The translations under genes were made by a program, and so were the position numbers. 64,000 bases of DNA. It comes from Thermoanaerobacteraceae bacterium (GTDB taxonomy: Bacteria; Bacillota; JADQBR01). The DNA lies in NCBI GenBank assembly GCA_017656305.1, contig JACDOG010000004.1:124001-188000 (forward strand), in the 5' to 3' direction. The notes under the pieces were generated by a model. The model had not been told where the DNA came from and made no database searches. It saw only the letters and a list, made by a program, of their open reading frames with translations. Positions 45,055 to 59,171 of this stretch are shown here, piece by piece (the stretch's first letter is position 1; every line of letters starts with the position of its first letter).

Positions 45055-45873
45055 TTAGATGTTAGAAATAGCTTCCTTGATTTGTGCCACAAATTGCTCC
45101 AGCTGTTCCGGCAGTATTTCAGACGGGTACTGTTCCACCAACTTAACCAGGGCACTGCCCATGATAACACCATCGAAAATGAGTGCCGCCTGTCGGGCTT
45201 GTTCTTTATTGCCAATGCCAAACCCAATCAATACCGGCAAATCGGTAATTTTTTTTACCCGGGAAACTTCTGCAGCCAACTCATTTCTCAAACTATCTCT
45301 CACCCCGGTTACTCCGGTAACCGACGTGTAGTAAATAAAACCGGAAGCATATTTACTGATTTCTTCCAACCTTCCCGTACCGGTAGTCGGAGCTGCTATA
45401 CCGATAACATGTAAACCTAATTCGGCTGCGTACCTGCGCAAGTCTCTACCGGCTTCTAAAGGCATGTCAGGTACGACAACACCATCCACGCCACATTTAA
45501 CGGCGGCTTCCACAAACCTATCCAAACCATAGACGTAAATAGTGTTGTAATATATCAGCAGCACCACGGGAGTGTCTTTCAGAGTACCGTCACTACGCAG
45601 GCCGGAAACCAGTGTTAAGACTTTATCCAAATTCACCCGGTTATTTAAAGCGCGCACGGAGGCGCGTTGAATGACGGGACCGTCGGCAAGCGGGTCAGAA
45701 AAAGGCACTCCCAGCTCAATAATATCTGCACCGCCGCGACGCATGGCTGCCATCAATTTGGCCGTATCTTCCAACGAAGGATCTCCTGCTGTTATAAAAG
45801 GCATAAACACTTTTTGTCCCTGTCTCTTCGCTACCATAAAGGCCCGGTCAATGCGGTTGCTACTATTGTCCAT
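45055..45873 (-). CDS. trpA: Tryptophan synthase alpha subunit
   Basis: Cleaves indole-3-glycerol phosphate to indole and glyceraldehyde 3-phosphate; indole is channelled to TrpB. From the ATG at 45873 it has 272 residues. [11 protein letters not shown], the active-site Glu in [19 protein letters not shown] with the second acid Asp, and [10 protein letters not shown] are all present. It overlaps trpB by 11 bp and is the last gene of the operon. Confidence 0.97.
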
Positions 45874-47104
45874 CAGCCGTATCCCCTTCCTTACAGACAG
45901 TATCGACATCCTTATCTCCCCTACCGGAGAGGTTTACAATCACAATTACTTCCCTTGCCGCATTCTGCCGGAAGTACGGGGCCATTTTTTCCAAATACGC
46001 CAGTGCGTGTGCGCTTTCCAGTGCAGGAATAATACCCTCTATCCGGCTTAACAGGTGAAAGGCACTCAAAGCCTCTCTATCAGTTACCGCCTGGTATTCC
46101 ACCCTGCCCGTATCCTTCAGCCAAGAATGCTCGGGACCAACTCCCGGGTAGTCCAACCCTGCAGAGATGGAATGGGCTTCTTGAATTTGACCGTACTTAT
46201 CCTGAAGCTGGTAGCTCAGTGCACCGTGCAGTACACCTTTTGTTCCCTTGGATAATGGTGCGGCATGCCGCCTTGACTCCAATCCTTCTCCTGCCGCTTC
46301 TACACCGATTAACCTCACACCCTTATCTCCTATGAAGGGATAAAATATCCCCATGGCATTACTGCCGCCGCCTACACACGCAATAATATAATCGGGCAGA
46401 CGTCCTTCCTTTTCCAAAATCTGTTTTCTGGTTTCTTCACCGATTACTTTTTGAAAATCACGAACCATCGTGGGATAAGGATGAGGGCCGACAACCGATC
46501 CGATGATATAATGAGTATCTTTAACATTTGTAACCCAATCCCTGATAGCTTCATTACAGGCGTCTTTCAAAGTCTGCGAACCGGTTGTCACCGGCTTTAC
46601 TTCAGCGCCTAGAAGCTGCATGCGATAGACATTTAAAGCCTGGCGCTCAATGTCTACAGCGCCCATATAAATGCAACACTGCAGTCCCAACAAGGCGCAG
46701 GCAGTAGCCGTTGCCACCCCGTGCTGCCCGGCTCCGGTTTCGGCAATAATCCGCTTTTTACCCATTTTTTTTGCCAGCAGCGCCTGTCCCAGCGCATTGT
46801 TAATTTTGTGTGCCCCGGTATGGTTAAGGTCTTCTCTTTTTAAGTAGACTTTTACTTGATAGTTTTCCGTCGAATATTTTTCCGACAGCCTGGAAGCTAA
46901 AAATAACGGAGTGGTCCTGCCACAATAGTCGTTAAGATAATACTGCAGCTCTGCCCAGAAACTGTCCTTTGCCGTGTAATACTGATACGCTTTTTCCAGC
47001 TCTTCCAGAGCTGGCATTAACGTTTCCGGTACAAACTGCCCCCCGTAGTCACCAAAATACCCGCTTTCTTTACCTTGCTTCGCTTCCACCCGAGAAAAAA
47101 TCAT
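45863..47104 (-). CDS. trpB: Tryptophan synthase beta subunit
   Basis: PLP enzyme that joins indole to serine. It has 413 residues, starts [21 protein letters not shown] and carries the PLP Lys100 in [14 protein letters not shown]. The [14 protein letters not shown] phosphate loop and the [10 protein letters not shown] ending are typical of the TrpB1 form. Its ATG has GAGG upstream and lies inside the 3' end of trpF. Confidence 0.98.
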
Positions 47105-47792
47105 GGTTTTTCACCTCTCCCTTTACGGCTTTAATGAAGGCAGCTATCTTTTCAAAGCTTTTTTTGCCAGGGCTTACTTCTATTCCTGACGACACGTCCA
47201 TCCCCAGCGGCGTAATGCGGGTTAACAACTTGCCAACATTACCGCTGTGAAGACCCCCGGCGATAATAACGGGTTTACTGGGCCAGCGGTTGGCAAATTC
47301 TATCGCCAACTCCCAGTTAAATATTTTTCCCGTTCCCCCTAATCTTTGTGGTACATAAGCATCCAGCAACACCGCATCCACGTATGGATGATAGGCGGGT
47401 ATTTGCTCAAGTACCTCCGGCCCGGAAACGGAAAAGGCTTTTACCAGAAAGGACCAGGAACTGCCTTGATCAACCGCCAGCATATTTCTTAGTTCCCGAC
47501 AGTAAGCGGCAGTTTCCTCACCGTGCAACTGAACAGCACCCAGCGAAACCTCACGATAAATCTGTACTACCTGCTGCAACGGTTGGTTGGCAAAAACACC
47601 TACAGCACAGTGTTTTCTTGTTTTGACTACCCCGGCAATCTTTTTTGCCTGCTCCACAGACACATATCTGGGAGTATTCTTAACAAATACCAGGCCGATA
47701 GCATCTGCCCCCTGCTTTAATGCATACTCTGCCAGGCAAGCATCAGTCATCCCACAGCACTTAACCAACGGACGGGTCACAGGTTTCACCAC
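47070..47792 (-). CDS. trpF: Phosphoribosylanthranilate isomerase
   Basis: Amadori isomerase of the Trp pathway. It has about 240 residues, somewhat longer than most. [27 protein letters not shown] carries the catalytic Cys, and the Asp appears in [19 protein letters not shown]. The start is uncertain: a GTG at 47792 has AGAGG 10 nt upstream, the GTG at 47789 is close behind, and a TTG at 47828 is possible. The gene overlaps the end of trpC and of trpB. Confidence 0.93.
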
Positions 47793-48612
47793 CCGGAACC
47801 GACCTCTTACCGTTCCTGTACCTGTCAAACGTGTCCTTAAAACCTTTAATAATTGCCGCGGGTCTACTGCAGGTCATCAACACTTCACCCACCAGCACCC
47901 CATCATAACCAGCAGCGGCTATTCTTTTTATATCAGCAGAGTTTTTGACCCCGCTCTCCGCTATTGTTACTGTTTCCTCTGGCAGCCGCTTTGCCAGGCG
48001 AATACAGGTATCCAGGTCCACTGTGAAGCTGCTTAAATTGCGATTATTAACACCGACCAGCGGCGGAGAGAACTTCATCACCTTATCCAATTCCCGTTCA
48101 TCATGCACTTCTACCAAACAATCCATCCCCAATTGTTGTGCTTCATAGTACAATGCCTGCAGCTGCCTGTCGTCCAATAAAGCTGCTATCAGTAACACTG
48201 CTGAGGCGCCGGCAGCACGTCCGCGGTATATCTGCCACGGGTGAATAATAAAATCCTTTTGCAGTACAGGCAGTGTCGTCTGTTCCTTAACCTGTGCCAG
48301 CTTTTGGTAACTGCCATCGAAATAATACCGTTCAGTAAGAACAGAAATAGCAGTGGCACCTCCCCTTTCGTACTCTGACACCCTGCTTTTCAGGTCGTAA
48401 TCTGCAGTTAATCTTCCCCGAGAAGGAGAGGCATACTTAATTTCAGCAATAATTTTACAGTCCGATCCTCCTTCCATCACCTTTTGAAACCTGTTCGGAG
48501 CCGCCGCCTGACTTGCTATCTGTTTTTCCAAAATTTTTAACGGTATTGCTTCCATTCCTTCAGCTACTTCCTGCTTTTTCAATGCCAGTATTTTTCGTAG
48601 AAAACTAAACAT
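47761..48612 (-). CDS. trpC: Indole-3-glycerol phosphate synthase
   Basis: Closes the indole ring by decarboxylation. From the ATG at 48612 (CGGAGGAC upstream) the protein has 283 residues. It has IAEIKYASPSRG with the catalytic Lys, VLTERYYFDGSYQKL, VLQKDFIIHPWQI and NNRNLSSFTVDLDTC, the landmarks of this TIM barrel. The longer reading to 48729 is rejected. It overlaps trpD by 8 bp. Confidence 0.97.
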   Translation of the reverse strand: MFSFLRKILALKKQEVAEGMEAIPLKILEKQIASQAAAPNRFQKVMEGGSDCKIIAEIKYASPSRGRLTADYDLKSRVSEYERGGATAISVLTERYYFDGSYQKLAQVKEQTTLPVLQKDFIIHPWQIYRGRAAGASAVLLIAALLDDRQLQALYYEAQQLGMDCLVEVHDERELDKVMKFSPPLVGVNNRNLSSFTVDLDTCIRLAKRLPEETVTIAESGVKNSADIKRIAAAGYDGVLVGEVLMTCSRPAAIIKGFKDTFDRYRNGKRSVPGGETCDPSVG

Positions 48613-49678
48613 GAGCTGTCCTCCGTTGTATACCGAAGTTTTCCCGGTCCCTGTCAAGGCTTTTCCGGCGCAGCTCCCGGGTAACTGAAACCAACTGCTC
48701 CAACTTGCGCTCGGCCAATCCTTTGTCAATTAATTCAGTTGCAAAAGCCAGTCCCTCTTTAAGACTGCACACCTTGCCTGCAACATAAAATGCGGCAGCA
48801 GCATTTAACAGCACTACTTCTCTCCTGGGCCCCCGTTCTTCACCGGATAATATCTTTTTGGTAATTTCTGCGTTCTCCTGTGCAGTACCGCCTATTAAAT
48901 CATCTATTGTACAGCAGTTTAGACCCAATTCTCCGGGTAAAATCCGGTAGCTGGTCACCGTACCGCTGCTAATCTCACTAACATAAGTAGGCCCGGTTAA
49001 GGTAATCTCGTCCATACCGTCAGACCCGTGCACTACCATGGCACGCTCAACACCCATATTTTTCAAAGCATTAGCCAAAATACCGGTTAACCGGCGCTGG
49101 TAGACACCGACTATTTGAAACTTAGCAGCAGCAGGGTTGGTCAGGGGACCCAGTAAATTAAAGATGGACCGAAACCCCAACTCCTTTCGGGGCCCCGCCG
49201 CATACTTCATTGCTTTATGAAATGTAGGAGCAAACAAGAACCCAATTCCTACCTCCTCCAAACAAAACCGCACCAATTCAGGCGGGAGGGTAATATCTAC
49301 CCCCAGGGCTTCCAAAACGTCCGCACTGCCGCTCCGACTGGATACAGAACGGTTTCCGTGCTTTGCCACCGGCACTCCACCGGCTGCCACCACCAGTGCT
49401 ACCGTGGTGGAAATATTAAAGGTATTTAAATAGTCACCGCCGGTTCCACATGTGTCTACCACAGACTGCCTAATAAAAAAAGGAGCCGCTTTCGCCCGCA
49501 TGGCCTTGGCACAGCCGGCTATTTCTTCGGGAGTTTCTCCTTTCATTCTCAATGCTGTCATAAAAGCCGCTATTTGGGCAGGAGTAGCCTCCCCGGCCAT
49601 AATTAAACTCATGGCTTCCTGCGCTTCATTTTGGGATAAATTTTGCCCGCCAATAAGTTTATTAATAGTTGCCTGCAT
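48605..49678 (-). CDS. trpD: Anthranilate phosphoribosyltransferase
   Basis: Adds PRPP to anthranilate. It has 357 residues with the PRPP loop VDTCGTGGDYLNTFNIS, the KHGNRSVSSRSGSADVLEALG segment and GPRKELGFRSIFNLLGPLTNP. The ATG has GGAGAG upstream. It is a stand-alone enzyme here; the trpG glutaminase is a separate gene 70 bp upstream. Confidence 0.98.
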   Translation of the reverse strand: MQATINKLIGGQNLSQNEAQEAMSLIMAGEATPAQIAAFMTALRMKGETPEEIAGCAKAMRAKAAPFFIRQSVVDTCGTGGDYLNTFNISTTVALVVAAGGVPVAKHGNRSVSSRSGSADVLEALGVDITLPPELVRFCLEEVGIGFLFAPTFHKAMKYAAGPRKELGFRSIFNLLGPLTNPAAAKFQIVGVYQRRLTGILANALKNMGVERAMVVHGSDGMDEITLTGPTYVSEISSGTVTSYRILPGELGLNCCTIDDLIGGTAQENAEITKKILSGEERGPRREVVLLNAAAAFYVAGKVCSLKEGLAFATELIDKGLAERKLEQLVSVTRELRRKSLDRDRENFGIQRRTAHV

Positions 49679-49748
49679 ATTTTCTCTCCTCTCCTTTACT
49701 CTACTCAGCTATTCTCTTAAAAAAACTTTCCTCTAAACAGAAAACCGC

Positions 49749-50315
49749 CTAATGATAAAAAAAGTTACTAATCAGCCTCTTTCCTTCCCTGGTTAAAATG
49801 GATTCCGGGTGAAACTGCACACCCCATACGGGGTACTTCCGGTGTTTAACAGCCATTATCTCACCGTCCTCTGTTTCAGCCAAAACACCAAGTTCAGAAG
49901 GCAAGCCATCACGCGACGCTAGCAACGAGTGATATCTTGTGGCTGCAAAGGGATTAGTTAGCCCTTGAAAAATGCCTTCTTGGCTGTGATAAATACGTGA
50001 CACTTTACCGTGCACCGGTTTAGAAGCCTTTATCACCTTCCCGCCGTAGACCTCCACTATGCATTGATGTCCCAGGCAAACACCTAAAATGGGAACAGCC
50101 GGTCCGAAGTACTCTATGAATTCTTTAGAAATTCCAGCTTCTGCAGGGGTACCGGGGCCGGGCGAAATAACTATGTGGCTGGGCTTGATATTTACAGCTT
50201 CATGTAAAGTGACCCGGTCATTACGTTTTACCACCATGGGCAGTCCCAATTCCCCTATCATTTGTACCAGGTTATAAGTAAAGGAATCATAATTATCTAT
50301 TACCAAAACATTCAT
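49749..50315 (-). CDS. trpG: Anthranilate synthase glutaminase subunit
   Basis: Provides ammonia from glutamine to the TrpE active site. It has 188 residues. The nucleophile Cys80 lies in LGVCLGHQC and the His-Glu pair in VQFHPESIL. The ATG overlaps the stop of the aroF-trpE fusion gene by 4 bp, so the two subunits are made together. In Bacillus this subunit is also shared with folate synthesis; whether that holds here cannot be seen. Confidence 0.96.
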
Positions 50316-52702
50316 TGCTTCTCACCTCGCGCCATGGCTATTGCCTGAAACATTGCCTGGGCTTTATTCAAAGTTTCCTGATATTCCTTTTCCGGCTTTG
50401 AATCGGCCACAATCCCTGCTCCTGTTTGTACATAAGCCCGGCCCTGGTGCACTGTTACGGAACGAATATTAATACAGATATCCATTTGCCCGCTGTAAGC
50501 TAAATATCCCACCATTCCGGCATATGGTCCCCGTGGTGTTTTCTCCAGTTCCCTGATAATTTCTATGGCACGTATTTTCGGGGCACCAGATACGGTACCG
50601 GCCGGAAAAGCTGCAGCTAAAACATCCAGCGCATCCTTACCGGGCAGAACTCTTCCCGTTACACAGGAAACCAAATGCATCACATGGGAAAAATACTCCA
50701 CTTGGGAAAACTCTTCCACGGTCACTGTCCCGAACCGGCAAACCCGGCCTAAATCGTTACGACCTAAATCTACAAGCATAACATGTTCCGCCTGTTCCTT
50801 TTCATCACTTCTCAGGTCTTCAGTTAACAACAGGTCTTCCTCCCTATCACGTCCCCGTTTCCTTGTTCCGGCTATGGGACGCAACTGAGCCTGGCCGTTT
50901 TCCAAGCGAACCAGCATTTCCGGGGAAGCCCCTACCAGGCACAGGTCTTCGAGTTGTAGGTAAAACATATATGGAGAAGGATTGATAGCTTTCAGGCAGC
51001 GTAATAACGCCAGCGGGGCAAAGTCAGCCGGCAGCGAAAAACGCTGTGACAGCACGATTTGGAAGGCATCTCCACAGTCAATATATTCCTTTGCTTTTTG
51101 GACAGCGTTACAAAACTGTTCTTTGGTGAAATTACTGGTAATTTTTAATTCTGCAGGGTTACCGCCAGGTGATACCGCCGGCAGCTGTACATTCTTTTTC
51201 ATCCGGCCCAGAATGCTGCGTATCAGCAACTGTGCCCGGTGGTATTCTTTTTCCGGATTATCTCCCGGAAGTGTATTCACCACTACCTTAAGCGTACTTT
51301 TTAAATGGTCAAAGATTAACAGCGACCTGGTAAATATCATGTTAATATCAGCCAAACCCCCGGGTTCTAAGGTTTTTGCCAGTACGGGCTCAAAATAACG
51401 TACTCCTTCAAAACCGATATAACCCACGGCACCGCCGAAAAAGCGGGGCAAATTCCGGCCCGTTTCCGCCGTATATTGTTGTAGTAGTTTTCTTAACTCT
51501 GCTAAAGGTTGGTCATTGTCCCTTTCTTCCCACTGGCAAATTTTATTGGGGAAAGCGTCCTGCTCACCGGGTTTACCGAGTTTAACCTTGCTGCCCGCCG
51601 CCTGAAATACGAGATACGGGTCATTGCCAACAAAAGAGTAACGGGCAATTTGGTCATTTCCCTCGACACTTTCCAAAATAAAGGAATAAGGTGTCTGCCC
51701 CAGTTTTAACAAAGCCGAAGCAGGTGTTTCATTGCCAATCATTACCTCCGTATACACCGGAATGACTTTGTCGCCCCTGGTAACTTTCTGACAATACTGA
51801 CGGTAATCGGGAATTACTTTGACACCTTCTAAAAATTGCACAGTACCAATTGCCGGCTTGTATTTATCCCGCTTTGACGGCATTTGCCGCCCCGCCGCAT
51901 CGACAAACGGGCGCAGCTCTTCTACCAAATGCTTAAACTCTTGTATAGTCAATGATTGTTTGCCGTCACACAAAGCATTGTCAGGGGAAGGATGCACTTC
52001 AATCAACAGGCCGTCAGCCCCGGCGGCAACAGCAGCTTTCGCCATAGGTAGAACCAGGTCTGCCCGCCCGGTACCGTGACTGGGGTCCACAACCACCGGT
52101 AATTCCGTACGAGACTTGGCCAGGGGTACGGCACTTAAGTCCAAGGTAAAACGGGTAGCAGACTCATAAGTACGGATACCCCGCTCGCACAGGATAATCT
52201 GGTGATTGCCCTCCACAAGCAAGTACTCGGCTGCATATAACCACTCTTCCACAGTGGCAGACAGGCCTCTTTTAAGCAGTACGGGTTTGTTTAATTCCCC
52301 CAGTCTCCGCAACAGTTCGAAATTTTGCATGTTGCGGGCGCCTACCTGCAGTAAATCGGCATAAGCCGCTACCTGCTCCACGTGAACCGTGCTGACCACC
52401 TCGGTAACCACCGGCAGTCCGGACACCTCCTTAGCCCGCAGCAGCAGGTCCAGTCCATGTTCTCCCAATCCCTGAAAGGAATGAGGGGAACTCCGGGGTT
52501 TGTAAGCACCACCCCTCAGGACACTTGCACCCGCCTGAGCTACGGCAGCAGCTGTAGCCAACAGCTGCTGTTCGCTCTCCACGGCACAGGGCCCGGCCAT
52601 GATCTGAAATTCCTTGCCGCCAAAAAGAACATTGCCCACCTTGACAACACTGTTCTTAACACCATTCCCTGGTCCCTGGTAACCAGCCTTTTCCACGCTC
52701 AT
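50312..52702 (-). CDS. DAHP synthase - anthranilate synthase component I fusion
   Basis: One continuous 796-codon gene. Residues about 18-272 are a type I-beta DAHP synthase (AroF/AroG): AGPCAVES with metal-ligand Cys39, [26 protein letters not shown], His209 in DPSHG, Glu235 in EVHPSP and Asp246 in LCDGKQSL. After a polar linker (about 271-292), residues about 293-796 form a complete TrpE. This part has the Trp-feedback motif ILESVEG (342-348), [16 protein letters not shown] and [15 protein letters not shown]. The usual regulatory ferredoxin-like or chorismate-mutase domain of DAHP synthase is missing. An ATG at codon 274 with a weak G-rich site could allow separate TrpE initiation. Confidence 0.93.
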
Positions 52703-52750: not shown

Positions 52751-52787
52751 AAAAAACCGGCAGACCCGCCGAATCGAGGTCTGCCGG
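52751..52787 (-). terminator. Second leader terminator, just before aroF-trpE
   Basis: A perfect 10-bp GC-rich stem (52757-52766 with 52778-52787) with an 11-nt loop, followed on the minus strand by six T. The arm plus T-run (plus-strand 52751-52760) is an exact inverted repeat of 52718-52727, so a competing hairpin is possible after readthrough. Confidence 0.88.
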
Positions 52788-52856: not shown

Positions 52857-52880
52857 AAAAAATCCAGGCCGCAGCCTGGA
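52857..52880 (-). terminator. First leader terminator of the trp operon
   Basis: A 7-bp stem (52863-52869 with 52874-52880), 4-nt loop, then six T on the minus strand. It begins 15 nt after the TRAP-like site. An upstream GGAAAA/TTTTCC hairpin with AGCC/GGCT outside it would consume the left arm and act as antiterminator. Confidence 0.75.
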
Positions 52881-52894
52881 AAATATACTTTTCC

Positions 52895-52953
52895 CTGTGC
52901 TCGGCTTTGCTCAATCTCATCTTTTCTTAACTCGACTCAGCTAGGTCAACCTA
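52895..52953 (-). promoter_or_regulatory. Predicted TRAP-binding triplet array
   Basis: Reading the leader 5' to 3' from 52953, twelve triplets occur at a period of 5 nt (one spacer is 3 nt instead of 2). Seven are GAG or TAG, three AAG, one CAG and one TGA. This is the layout of a binding site for the 11-subunit Trp-sensing protein TRAP (MtrB), which wraps NAG repeats with 2-3-nt spacers. It overlaps the potential antiterminator. No mtrB gene lies in this window. Confidence 0.7.
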
Positions 52954-52983
52954 TAAACTAAACCAAAAACCAAATTTTGTATA

Positions 52984-53013
52984 ATTATAACAGGGTCCAA
53001 ACCAAAAAGTCAA
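52984..53013 (-). promoter_or_regulatory. Promoter of the trp operon
   Basis: On the minus strand TTGACT (53008-53013) and TATAAT (52984-52989) are 18 nt apart, and the -10 is extended by TGT. The -35 begins 13 bp after the fetB stop. Start of transcription is expected near 52977. Confidence 0.85.
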
Positions 53014-56185: not shown

Positions 56186-56941
56186 CTAAAGAATATCCAG
56201 GATATATCTTTTAATCGCATTAAATTCTCTGGAGGTAATCAAGTCCTTGGTACGCGGTTTGGGTAAATCTATTATCACTTCATCCTTGACGCTTGCCGGG
56301 CGCCCGGACAGCACATAGATTCTGTCGGAGAGAAAAATGGCCTCTTCAATATCATGGGTAATAAACAGGATGGACGCCTGCAGCTTGTTTAAAACCTCCA
56401 GCAGCCAGTCCTGCATTTTTGACTTGGTGATGGCATCCAGCCCACCAAAGGGCTCATCCAGAAGAATTATATCGGAAGAAAACATGTAAGTCCGCATCAG
56501 CGCAGCCCGCTGTCTCATCCCCCCGGAGAGCTGGAACGGGTACCTGTCTTCAAAGCCTTCCAGGCCAAATAGAGGAAAGTATTTCTGTACCTGCCGCCGC
56601 GCCTCGGGCCAGGACCGGCCGCTGATAACCAGCGGCAGGCACACGTTATCAATAACCTTCTTCCAGGGAAGCAGCAGGTCCTTTTGGTACATGTAGCTGA
56701 CCCGCCCCGTTCTGCCGGTATAATCCTCACCTTCAATAATTACTTTACCGTCATCGGGAGACAGCAGGCCGGCTATAATGTTGAAAATGGTACTTTTCCC
56801 GCTGCCGCTGGGGCCAATTAAGGACACGAACTCGTGTTCCCCGAGCTTGAGGCTGACGCCGTCCACAACCAACAGGTCGTCAAAGGACTTTCTTAAATCT
56901 TTGACAACCAATTTCTCCCTATTCTTCCGGTAGGAACTCAT
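56186..56941 (-). CDS. ABC transporter ATPase for thiamine precursor
   Basis: A 251-residue ABC ATPase of the SsuB/TauB/ThiZ group. Walker A is [13 protein letters not shown] (about 43-55), the signature [14 protein letters not shown] and Walker [17 protein letters not shown]. It ends the operon behind the TPP riboswitch, so it most likely drives import of a thiamine pyrimidine precursor (ThiZ role). Its ATG overlaps the lipoprotein gene by 23 bp, with GAGG 9 nt upstream. Confidence 0.9.
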
Positions 56942-57923
56942 TGGTGAAAGCCTCTTTTACATCCAGCTTTTTGTCGATAAGGTCATGTTCATACAACCAT
57001 TCCGCATAGTTTTTCCAGATTTCTTCCTTCATTTCACCCCACCTGTCAGCATCGGCTTGATACTGCTCCGCCAGGTACTTTTGACTGGCAACCGCTATCT
57101 CCCGATCAATTTCCGGGGCAAATTTCAACAGGGATACTACCGCATCTTCCGGATGCTCTATGGCATACTCATAACCCTTGGTAGTAGCCCGCAAAAACTT
57201 TTTCACCAGCTCCGGCTGTTCTTGCAACAAATCTTCCTTGGCTATAATAACCGGGGTGTAAAAATCCAGTCTGGGGTCAACATCCTGCAATTTGATAAAG
57301 TTAATGGGAAAGTCCTTTACTTCCGCAGCCACCCCGTCCCAGCCGTAATAAATCCAGGTAAAGTCCACTTCGTTCTGCACGGCGGCAAAAAAGTCAGTAG
57401 CGCCGATATCCACCATTTCCAGCTCGGAAAAATCCGCTCCCTCTTTTTCCATCAGGGCCTTTAGCATGGCCTTTTCCACGGGTGAACCCCAGCCACCGTA
57501 TTTTTTACCTTCAAAATCTTTGGGACTGGTGATATTTTTTTCCACCGGAGAAGCAAATCCGGAGGTATTGTGCTGGATAATGGCAGCAATGGCTTTAATT
57601 GGCAGGGAGGGTTCCGCAGTCCGGGCAAAAGTGACCTGTTCCTGGTAGCTGATCCCAAATTCACCCTGACCGGCAGCAATTAAGTCAGCACTTCCCCCGG
57701 CAGAGGGCTGAATTATCTCAACATCCAGTCCTTCTTCCTCGTAGTACCCCTTGTCTTTAGCAACGTACAGTCCCGTGTGATTGGTATTGGGCACCCAGTC
57801 AAGCAGCACCCTTACTTTTTGCAGTTCCTGTTTTGCCTCGGGAGTCGCGTCGTTTTTTGCACATCCCGCCAAGGTAAACACCAGTACAACCACTATGAAA
57901 CCAGCTAGCAGTTTTTTAAACAC
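56919..57923 (-). CDS. Thiamine-precursor-binding lipoprotein (NMT1/ThiY-like)
   Basis: A 334-residue lipoprotein: signal ending in the lipobox LAGC (Cys near residue 20). The body has [29 protein letters not shown] and [13 protein letters not shown], characteristic of the NMT1/ThiY family that binds HMP or formyl-aminopyrimidines. It is placed in a TPP-riboswitch operon, which supports the call. The start GTG at 57923 has AAGGAGGAG upstream; the longer reading is rejected. The ligand is inferred. Confidence 0.9.
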
Positions 57924-57947
57924 GTGTATCTCCTCCTTACACAAATT

Positions 57948-58721
57948 TTACTTATCATTCTGCATCTTGCGCTGCCAGGGCATTAATAAGTACTGCATGA
58001 GAGATATAACCTGAAACACGGCCATGCTGAAAAGCACAATTACCAAAATGGTGGCAAACACCCGGTCCAGAGCATAAGAGTGCTTGGCCCGCAGCATGTA
58101 AAGTCCCAGACCGGCAGTGCCGCCCAGCCACTCACCGATAACCGCACCCATGATGCTGTATGTGGCGGCAATACGCAGTCCGGAAAAGAAGTTAACCATG
58201 GAAGCGGGAAATTTCACCAGGCGAAATACCTGGAGCCGCGATGCTCCCATGGATTTCAGCAGGTTTAACATATCCTTGTCCGCAGACCCCAGGCCATGCA
58301 GTAAGCTGATAACGATGGGAAAGAAACAGACCAGTACTACCACGATGATTTTAGGCAGCATGTAATACCCAAACCACATACCAAACAAGGGAGCCAGGGC
58401 AATGATGGGAACTGTTTGAGATATAATAATCAGGGGATACAGGGCTTTTTTCACCAGCGGCACGTTGTCCATCACCACCGCCAGCACTATGGCCAGTAAA
58501 ATGGCTATCCCGAATCCGGCAAGGGCCTCCTGCAGTGTGACCATGATGTGCCCTTTTAACACCGGTAAAATTTCGACCAGTGCGATCACAACATCCTGAG
58601 GAGAGGGAAGGATATACCTTGCAATTAAACCGCTTTCTACCACTGCCTGCCATACCAGAAGTAAGGCCGCCAGAAAGAGGCACGGCACCAGCCTATGTTC
58701 GATATTTGCCCACTTTTTCAA
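57948..58721 (-). CDS. ABC transporter permease for thiamine precursor
   Basis: A 257-residue inner-membrane permease of the SsuC/ThiX group with about six helices. LPSPQDVVIALVEIL near the N-terminus and the ATPase-contact loop MGASRLQVFRLVKFPASMVNFFSGLRIA (EAA-type) identify it. It overlaps the 3' end of the MTH1187-like gene and precedes the lipoprotein gene by 24 bp. Confidence 0.92.
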   Translation of the reverse strand: MKKWANIEHRLVPCLFLAALLLVWQAVVESGLIARYILPSPQDVVIALVEILPVLKGHIMVTLQEALAGFGIAILLAIVLAVVMDNVPLVKKALYPLIIISQTVPIIALAPLFGMWFGYYMLPKIIVVVLVCFFPIVISLLHGLGSADKDMLNLLKSMGASRLQVFRLVKFPASMVNFFSGLRIAATYSIMGAVIGEWLGGTAGLGLYMLRAKHSYALDRVFATILVIVLFSMAVFQVISLMQYLLMPWQRKMQNDK

Positions 58722-58983
58722 GCATCGTCACACCTTCTGGTTTGTAATCTATTTTCACCACAGACAGCACCCTGGAGGCGCCTTCCGCCACACAGATTTC
58801 CTGTGCCTTTTTCACTATCTCCAGCAGCTCGTCCAACTCACCCTCCATGGTAGTCTCCATGGGACCCACTTCATACTTTACGTTGCAGGAATCTATATAG
58901 GCAATAACCTTATCCACTACGTCATACAGTTTTTCATCAGCCACTTTCGGTATTACCTGCAGGCTTACATTGACGCTTGGCAC
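58693..58983 (-). CDS. Thiamine-binding protein, MTH1187/YkoF-like
   Basis: A 96-residue protein of the MTH1187 (DUF77) family. A ferredoxin-like fold is suggested by VNVSLQVIPKV, VGPMETTMEGELDELLEIVKKAQE and RVLSVVKIDYKPE. Such proteins bind thiamine or a precursor in the cytoplasm. From GTG at 58983, GGAGG lies 9 nt upstream; longer ATG starts (59004, 59043) begin inside or upstream of the riboswitch terminator and are rejected. First gene of the operon. Confidence 0.88.
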   Translation of the reverse strand: MPSVNVSLQVIPKVADEKLYDVVDKVIAYIDSCNVKYEVGPMETTMEGELDELLEIVKKAQEICVAEGASRVLSVVKIDYKPEGVTMLEKVGKYRT

Positions 58984-59002
58984 TATCGTTTCCCTCCTCT
59001 CC

Positions 59003-59041
59003 ATAATAATAAAGCCCTTTATCCTCCACCGAATAAAGGGC
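59003..59041 (-). terminator. Riboswitch-controlled terminator of the thiamine operon
   Basis: A perfect 9-bp stem (59014-59022 with 59033-59041), 10-nt loop, followed on the minus strand by a T-rich tract. It lies between the TPP aptamer and the first gene, so TPP-bound RNA would end here. Confidence 0.88.
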
Positions 59042-59068
59042 ATAGCATACCTTGCCTGACAAACTATC

Positions 59069-59163
59069 TCCTCCCTCCGCTGGCATTACCCAGTTCAGGT
59101 TATTTGGGTCGGAACAATACAGTTCCCTCTCAGCCGGATTTACTCCAGCTCCCCAGGTTTGTA
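59069..59163 (-). promoter_or_regulatory. TPP riboswitch (THI element)
   Basis: On the minus strand the THI-box core is clear: CTGAGAGGGA in the pyrimidine-sensing arm, then CCGACCC and ACCTGAACTGGGTAATGCCA with GCGGAGGGA. The paired outer stem starts near 59160. It senses thiamine pyrophosphate and, with the terminator downstream, should switch off the transporter operon when thiamine is plentiful. Confidence 0.95.
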
Positions 59164-59171
59164 TTACTTAT

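Follow-up and report, generated by a model that had tools for sequence, protein, structure and literature searches.

DAHP synthases are a model of allostery that arises through the attachment of domains. DAHP synthase can be regulated by an attached chorismate mutase (CM) domain (PMC12202928). On the other hand, control of the unregulated, operon-borne DAHP synthase encoded by phzC of P. aeruginosa is thought to be at the genetic level (PMC6435475). A recurrent natural fusion of a DAHP synthase to an enzyme that binds an end product provides a clean test of whether an enzyme of the pathway can come to regulate another one.

The window, i.e. the whole 64,000-nucleotide stretch of Thermoanaerobacteraceae DNA analysed here, has such a fusion. 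A search of the full text of open-licence PMC articles turned up no description of DAHP synthase naturally fused to TrpE, and neither the join nor its recurrence nor its control by TRAP appears to have been described in this searchable literature. As a whole, the locus is probably best explained as encoding a bifunctional enzyme dedicated to Trp synthesis, whose operon is attenuated by TRAP and which originated by loss of a stop codon.

The fusion gene

The aroF and trpE sequences form one open frame of 796 codons on the minus strand, from the ATG at window position 52702 to the stop at 50312. Both enzymes are recognized in the product, as the original prediction of a one-gene fusion had it. 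Pfam matches are DAHP_synth_1 at residues 26-264 (E 2e-81), Anth_synt_I_N at residues 325-472 (E 2e-30) and Chorismate_bind at residues 527-780 (E 2e-92). With NCBIfam models, the fusion scores 387.5 bits for the type Ib DAHP synthase TIGR01361 (cut-off 267.75) and 520.3 bits for the TrpE model TIGR00564, just over the cut-off of 517.7. The barrel and TrpE are connected by roughly 25–35 linker residues.

The two domains had also been proposed to be complete, and the motifs bear this out. All four metal ligands of DAHP synthase are present (C39, H209, E235 and D246), and the stretch of the barrel that holds them aligns without gaps to 3pg8, the solved truncated core of the T. maritima enzyme. 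Their spacing is that of the T. maritima ligands C102, H272, E298 and D309. In the TrpE part the Trp-site motifs FILES (341-345) and NPSPYMFY (574-581) are intact, as are the chorismate motifs, one of which is at 699. Because the barrel begins after a stretch of about 15 residues, the fusion has neither a ferredoxin-like N-terminal domain (about 75 residues) nor the CM domain of CM-DAHP synthase (PRK12595), and Pfam and NCBIfam searches gave no CM match. Thus the DAHP synthase was correctly described as lacking a regulatory domain. By these sequence comparisons the fusion is a genuine new architecture of known enzymes, with each half ordinary for its family.

AlphaFold modelling of the full fusion gives a confident TrpE part and a poor barrel, the latter covered by 3 of 40 rows, and therefore contact between barrel and TrpE is not readable in the model. 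Residues 271-290 of the linker have a pLDDT below 50.

Table 1. Features of the fusion gene, its leader and the trp operon (window coordinates)
Feature	Position	Strand	Basis
Strong promoter-like site TTGACT-18-TATAAT, TG ahead of second hexamer	52984..53013	-	11/12 consensus matches
TRAP-binding-like site, 12 NAG triplets (8 GAG/UAG, 3 AAG, 1 CAG)	52895..52960	-	score 8.45
Terminator-like hairpin T1	52863..52880	-	predicted to fold with or without TRAP site masked
Predicted TRAP-dependent terminator T2	52757..52787	-	stem probability, folding
aroF-trpE fusion gene, 796 aa	50312..52702	-	one uninterrupted frame; both enzymes matched in Pfam and NCBIfam
Type I-beta DAHP synthase barrel, residues 16-264, without N-terminal regulatory domain	51911..52657	-	TIGR01361, 3pg8 alignment, metal ligands
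Interdomain linker, about residues 273-305	51788..51886	-	gap between domain matches; pLDDT <50 over 271-290
TrpE: Anth_synt_I_N (325-472) and Chorismate_bind (527-780)	50363..51730	-	domain matches
trpG, glutamine amidotransferase partner; start overlaps fusion stop	49749..50315	-	Pfam and NCBIfam
Second TRAP-binding-like site, 7 triplets, over trpD ribosome-binding region	49684..49716	-	second best of window
trpD	48605..49678	-	Glycos_transf_3
trpC (true start probably within frame)	47761..48729	-	IGPS, residues 44-295
trpF	47070..47828	-	PRAI
trpB	45863..47104	-	PALP; homologous to trpB in related operons
trpA	45055..45909	-	Trp_syntA

The trp operon and the second DAHP synthase

The fusion heads a complete trp operon in the order aroF-trpE, trpG, D, C, F, B and A (Table 1). 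The source genome (2.7 Mb, 99.95% complete) was scanned for another aroF, a check named in the original prediction, and one was found. It encodes a stand-alone DAHP synthase of 343 aa between aroH and pheA, with an N-terminal extension that is of the right length for a ferredoxin-like domain. The genome has one other TrpE-like protein, which is in a pabA-pabB-pabC-type cluster. In view of these other copies, the fusion holds the sole trpE found, and its DAHP synthase part is a second isozyme.

This bears on the proposal that Trp would block entry into the whole pathway. A Trp-controlled entry step is supported, but the words ‘whole pathway’ are an overstatement, since the stand-alone pheA-linked DAHP synthase exists and has no TRAP-like leader (its leader scores 1.7, with no site).

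Several other elements were observed around these genes. A conserved open reading frame of 167-170 residues, which resembles a portion of a TrpF, is found upstream of pheA-linked aroF (L002:516-1028, L111:2785-3288 and L113:3053-3556). The leaders of pheA-linked aroF in three genera share repeats of the GGTAGGATGGTAGGACGGTAGG type (L002 upstream of 1264; L111; L113), and these leader repeats match no Rfam family. In the related genome G001, a T-box leader (L112:1233-1577), whose specifier may be UUC (Phe), is ahead of a second aroF that encodes an N-terminal extension; this T-box-led gene is missing from the source genome. Within the window, a TPP riboswitch at 59055-59165 on the minus strand (65.5 bits, gathering threshold 54.3) precedes an ABC transporter cluster on the same strand at 56186-59043.

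The leader and predicted TRAP control

A TRAP site has about 11 (G/U)AG repeats with spacers of 2-3 bases, and the NAG run in the leader of the fusion gene conforms to this, with two wider gaps among its triplets. Its score of 8.45 compares with a maximum of 3.70 in 300 shuffles and is the best of the whole window. By folding, the predicted probability of the T2 stem rises from 0.004 in the unmasked leader to 0.998 once the TRAP site is masked, where the TRAP-bound state is modelled only as an unpaired site and the start of transcription is guessed. The terminator and a structure that uses the TRAP site are accordingly predicted to exclude each other. No T-box or other Rfam leader was found upstream of the trp operon.

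The source genome also encodes TRAP. The mtrB gene (G000:C7:93333-93533) scores 137.9 bits with PF02081 (cut-off 21.3), and its 76 aa product clearly matches solved TRAPs over residues 9-74. All 21 genomes tested have mtrB. In six genomes with a fusion (G312, G355, G407, G409, G412 and G217) it is upstream of the fused gene, at a distance of no more than a few hundred bases. It should be pointed out that in some fused relatives (G312, G355, G407 and G409) the NAG run is not above the shuffle maximum.

From the leader elements and the predicted switch we infer that TRAP binds the leader in a Trp-dependent manner and causes termination. As the operon carries a TRAP-type attenuator, control by Trp at the level of transcription is to be expected with or without allostery, a route that the original prediction did not include. 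NAG runs at trpD, like the second site of Table 1, are also present in G001, G002, G217 and G382 and suggest TRAP control of trpD translation. A further TRAP-like run, of 10 triplets with a score of 6.5, is in the leader of pabA in the source genome (L003 upstream of 3511, minus strand), with a hairpin and a T run behind it.

Distribution of the fusion

The fusion was surveyed for within Bacillota, in 399 genomes and with additional class-level searches. The 399 genomes yielded full-length, unbroken fusions in the source genome and in G312, G355, G141 and G217, and the class-level searches added G407, G409 and G412. Thus the fusion recurs in seven other genomes as an open gene, which together with the source represent four families and three classes, and all seven further genes head trp operons. 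One family, f97, has kept the fusion across five genera. G411 has a seemingly broken copy.

The nearest relatives, G001 and G002, have TrpEs that are 67% and 60% identical to that of the source, and there is no aroF in their operons. The source groups with these two in the TrpE tree with a support of 100, and the TrpE phylogeny rejects a single clade of all eight fused TrpEs (p-AU 3e-6). For the DAHP synthase halves, a single clade is not rejected (p-AU 0.53), nor is grouping of the source domain with the family's second aroF (p-AU 0.38) or with pheA-linked aroF (p-AU 0.23). Two histories fit these trees: at least two separate fusion events, or a DAHP synthase half that spread while TrpE was replaced. 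One ancestral fusion would require repeated loss.

The original prediction had allowed that the gene might be an artefact if close relatives carried two genes. A stop or frameshift between aroF and trpE would then have been missed in sequencing or assembly. The genus is represented by one genome, and the two relatives of the same family indeed have a separate trpE. However, the artefact does not follow: the same unbroken order is present in seven other, more distant genomes, and a single base error could not create the fusion from an operon of the G001/G002 type, where no aroF is beside trpE. An artefact is therefore very improbable.

Unfused neighbours

Eight genomes have a bare aroF directly upstream of trpE and not fused to it (G382, G049, G122, G087, G014, G299, G321 and G317). 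In G049 the pair shares a reading frame, with 21 bases in between. Four of these (G382, G049, G122 and G087) had looked like fusions by scores or open-frame lengths and proved to be two adjacent genes. In further genomes a bare aroF is found within the trp operon or at its end. The unfused bare aroF upstream of trpE is, by gene order, the likely precursor of the fusion.

Other joins were noted near bare aroF genes. In G017 (L107:1718-4765) a bare aroF is followed by a 734-residue TrpE-TrpG fusion, behind trpB and trpA. In G317 (L148:3125-5803) an 892-residue frame that matches TrpE and TrpD is downstream of the bare aroF.

Across the loci read, trp-embedded DAHP synthases are bare without exception (24 of 24), and pheA-linked ones have an N-terminal extension in all but one case (16 of 17). 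These counts are a guide, because the loci were picked partly for nearness to trpE, with related genomes counted separately. Bare, trp-embedded DAHP synthases are a repeated class in Bacillota.

Proposed origin and function

The first product of the operon would combine a bare type I-beta DAHP synthase barrel with anthranilate synthase component I. A DAHP synthase without a regulatory domain would have become the neighbour of trpE within the trp operon, and the stop codon between them would then have been lost, as the unfused pairs in other families suggest. Sequence and folding predict that Trp-loaded TRAP occupies the NAG run of the leader, that T2 is thereby freed and that transcription halts. 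When Trp is short, the alternative fold of the leader would let DAHP synthase and TrpE be made one-to-one. TRAP control is thus predicted to reach the entry to the shikimate pathway. The fused DAHP synthase would be free of any control that the N-terminal domain exerts on the other isozyme, and the second enzyme, adjacent to pheA, would supply the remaining pathway. Trp bound at TrpE may also inhibit the attached DAHP synthase.

This last step raises the question of what the join itself does. It might be neutral, or merely stoichiometric, a union of operon neighbours in which the DAHP synthase has no regulation at the protein level and TRAP is the sole control. This is a serious contender, and we put it slightly below an even chance. 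The many genomes where bare aroF and trpE are unfused neighbours, one pair being in frame and 21 bases apart, agree with it, as do linkers that are short and varied in sequence; its difficulty is that the fusion was kept in five genera of f97 and is found in two further classes. Alternatively, Trp in the N-terminal TrpE site may alter contact with the barrel and inhibit DAHP formation, in place of the lost regulatory domain. Such allostery is compatible with TRAP control and would be an addition to the favoured explanation. The DAHP synthase without a regulatory domain of its own and the intact FILES and NPSPYMF motifs point in this direction, and the join recurs across lineages with TrpEs that do not form a single clade. 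A DAHP synthase chimera of the T. maritima and P. furiosus enzymes also counts in its favour. Yet bare DAHP synthases are also unfused in trp operons, which shows that the join is not required for the arrangement to work; moreover, the linker showed no conservation and is modelled at low confidence, and TRAP already provides Trp control. The CM-DAHP synthases are precedents that make allostery plausible (PMC12202928), but it is not necessary, given the unjoined operon enzymes and the genetically controlled enzyme of the phenazine operon (PMC6435475). On balance, allostery is a tentative proposal and somewhat doubtful.

The enzymes might still be made as two products, by translation of TrpE from the internal ATG at 51883 as well, or by cutting of the chain in the linker. 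Separate TrpE from this ATG had been named as a finding that would count against the fusion. The ATG does exist, at codon 274 just past the barrel, with a moderate upstream pairing of -6.4 kcal/mol, and the linker is a low-confidence region of the model. But there is no stop between the halves, the Shine-Dalgarno sequences at the annotated start (-8.4 kcal/mol) and at trpG (-11.8 kcal/mol) are better, and the internal start is conserved in none of the five fused genes compared. Two products are therefore unlikely, and the single bifunctional chain is the preferred reading.

Comparison with known systems

The fusion shares its barrel and metal ligands with the T. maritima enzyme (1rzm), which has an N-terminal ferredoxin-like domain and is a separate protein. 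The bare enzymes of P. furiosus (1zco) and A. pernix (1vs1) match it in barrel, ligands and bare length. All three are separate proteins, and the fusion alone has TrpE at the C-terminus of the barrel. In its role the fused enzyme resembles AroH of E. coli, a Trp-inhibited isozyme that is dedicated to Trp and is present beside others; however, AroH is of type I-alpha, has a built-in site, is unfused and is regulated by TrpR.

CM-DAHP synthase and DAHP synthase-CM proteins (B. subtilis, Listeria, Porphyromonas, Prevotella) likewise have a chorismate-using partner that is able to regulate (PMC12202928). There, the partner is chorismate mutase, of the Phe/Tyr branch, whereas here it is TrpE, of the Trp branch. 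The operon is like the trp operon of B. subtilis in its NAG-repeat leader, in the predicted exposure of a terminator by binding and in the presence of mtrB in the genome (PMC4027176). The B. subtilis trpEDCFBA operon as described has no DAHP synthase gene, whereas DAHP synthase is the first coding part of the operon described here, which also differs in having a second TRAP-like site over the start of trpD.
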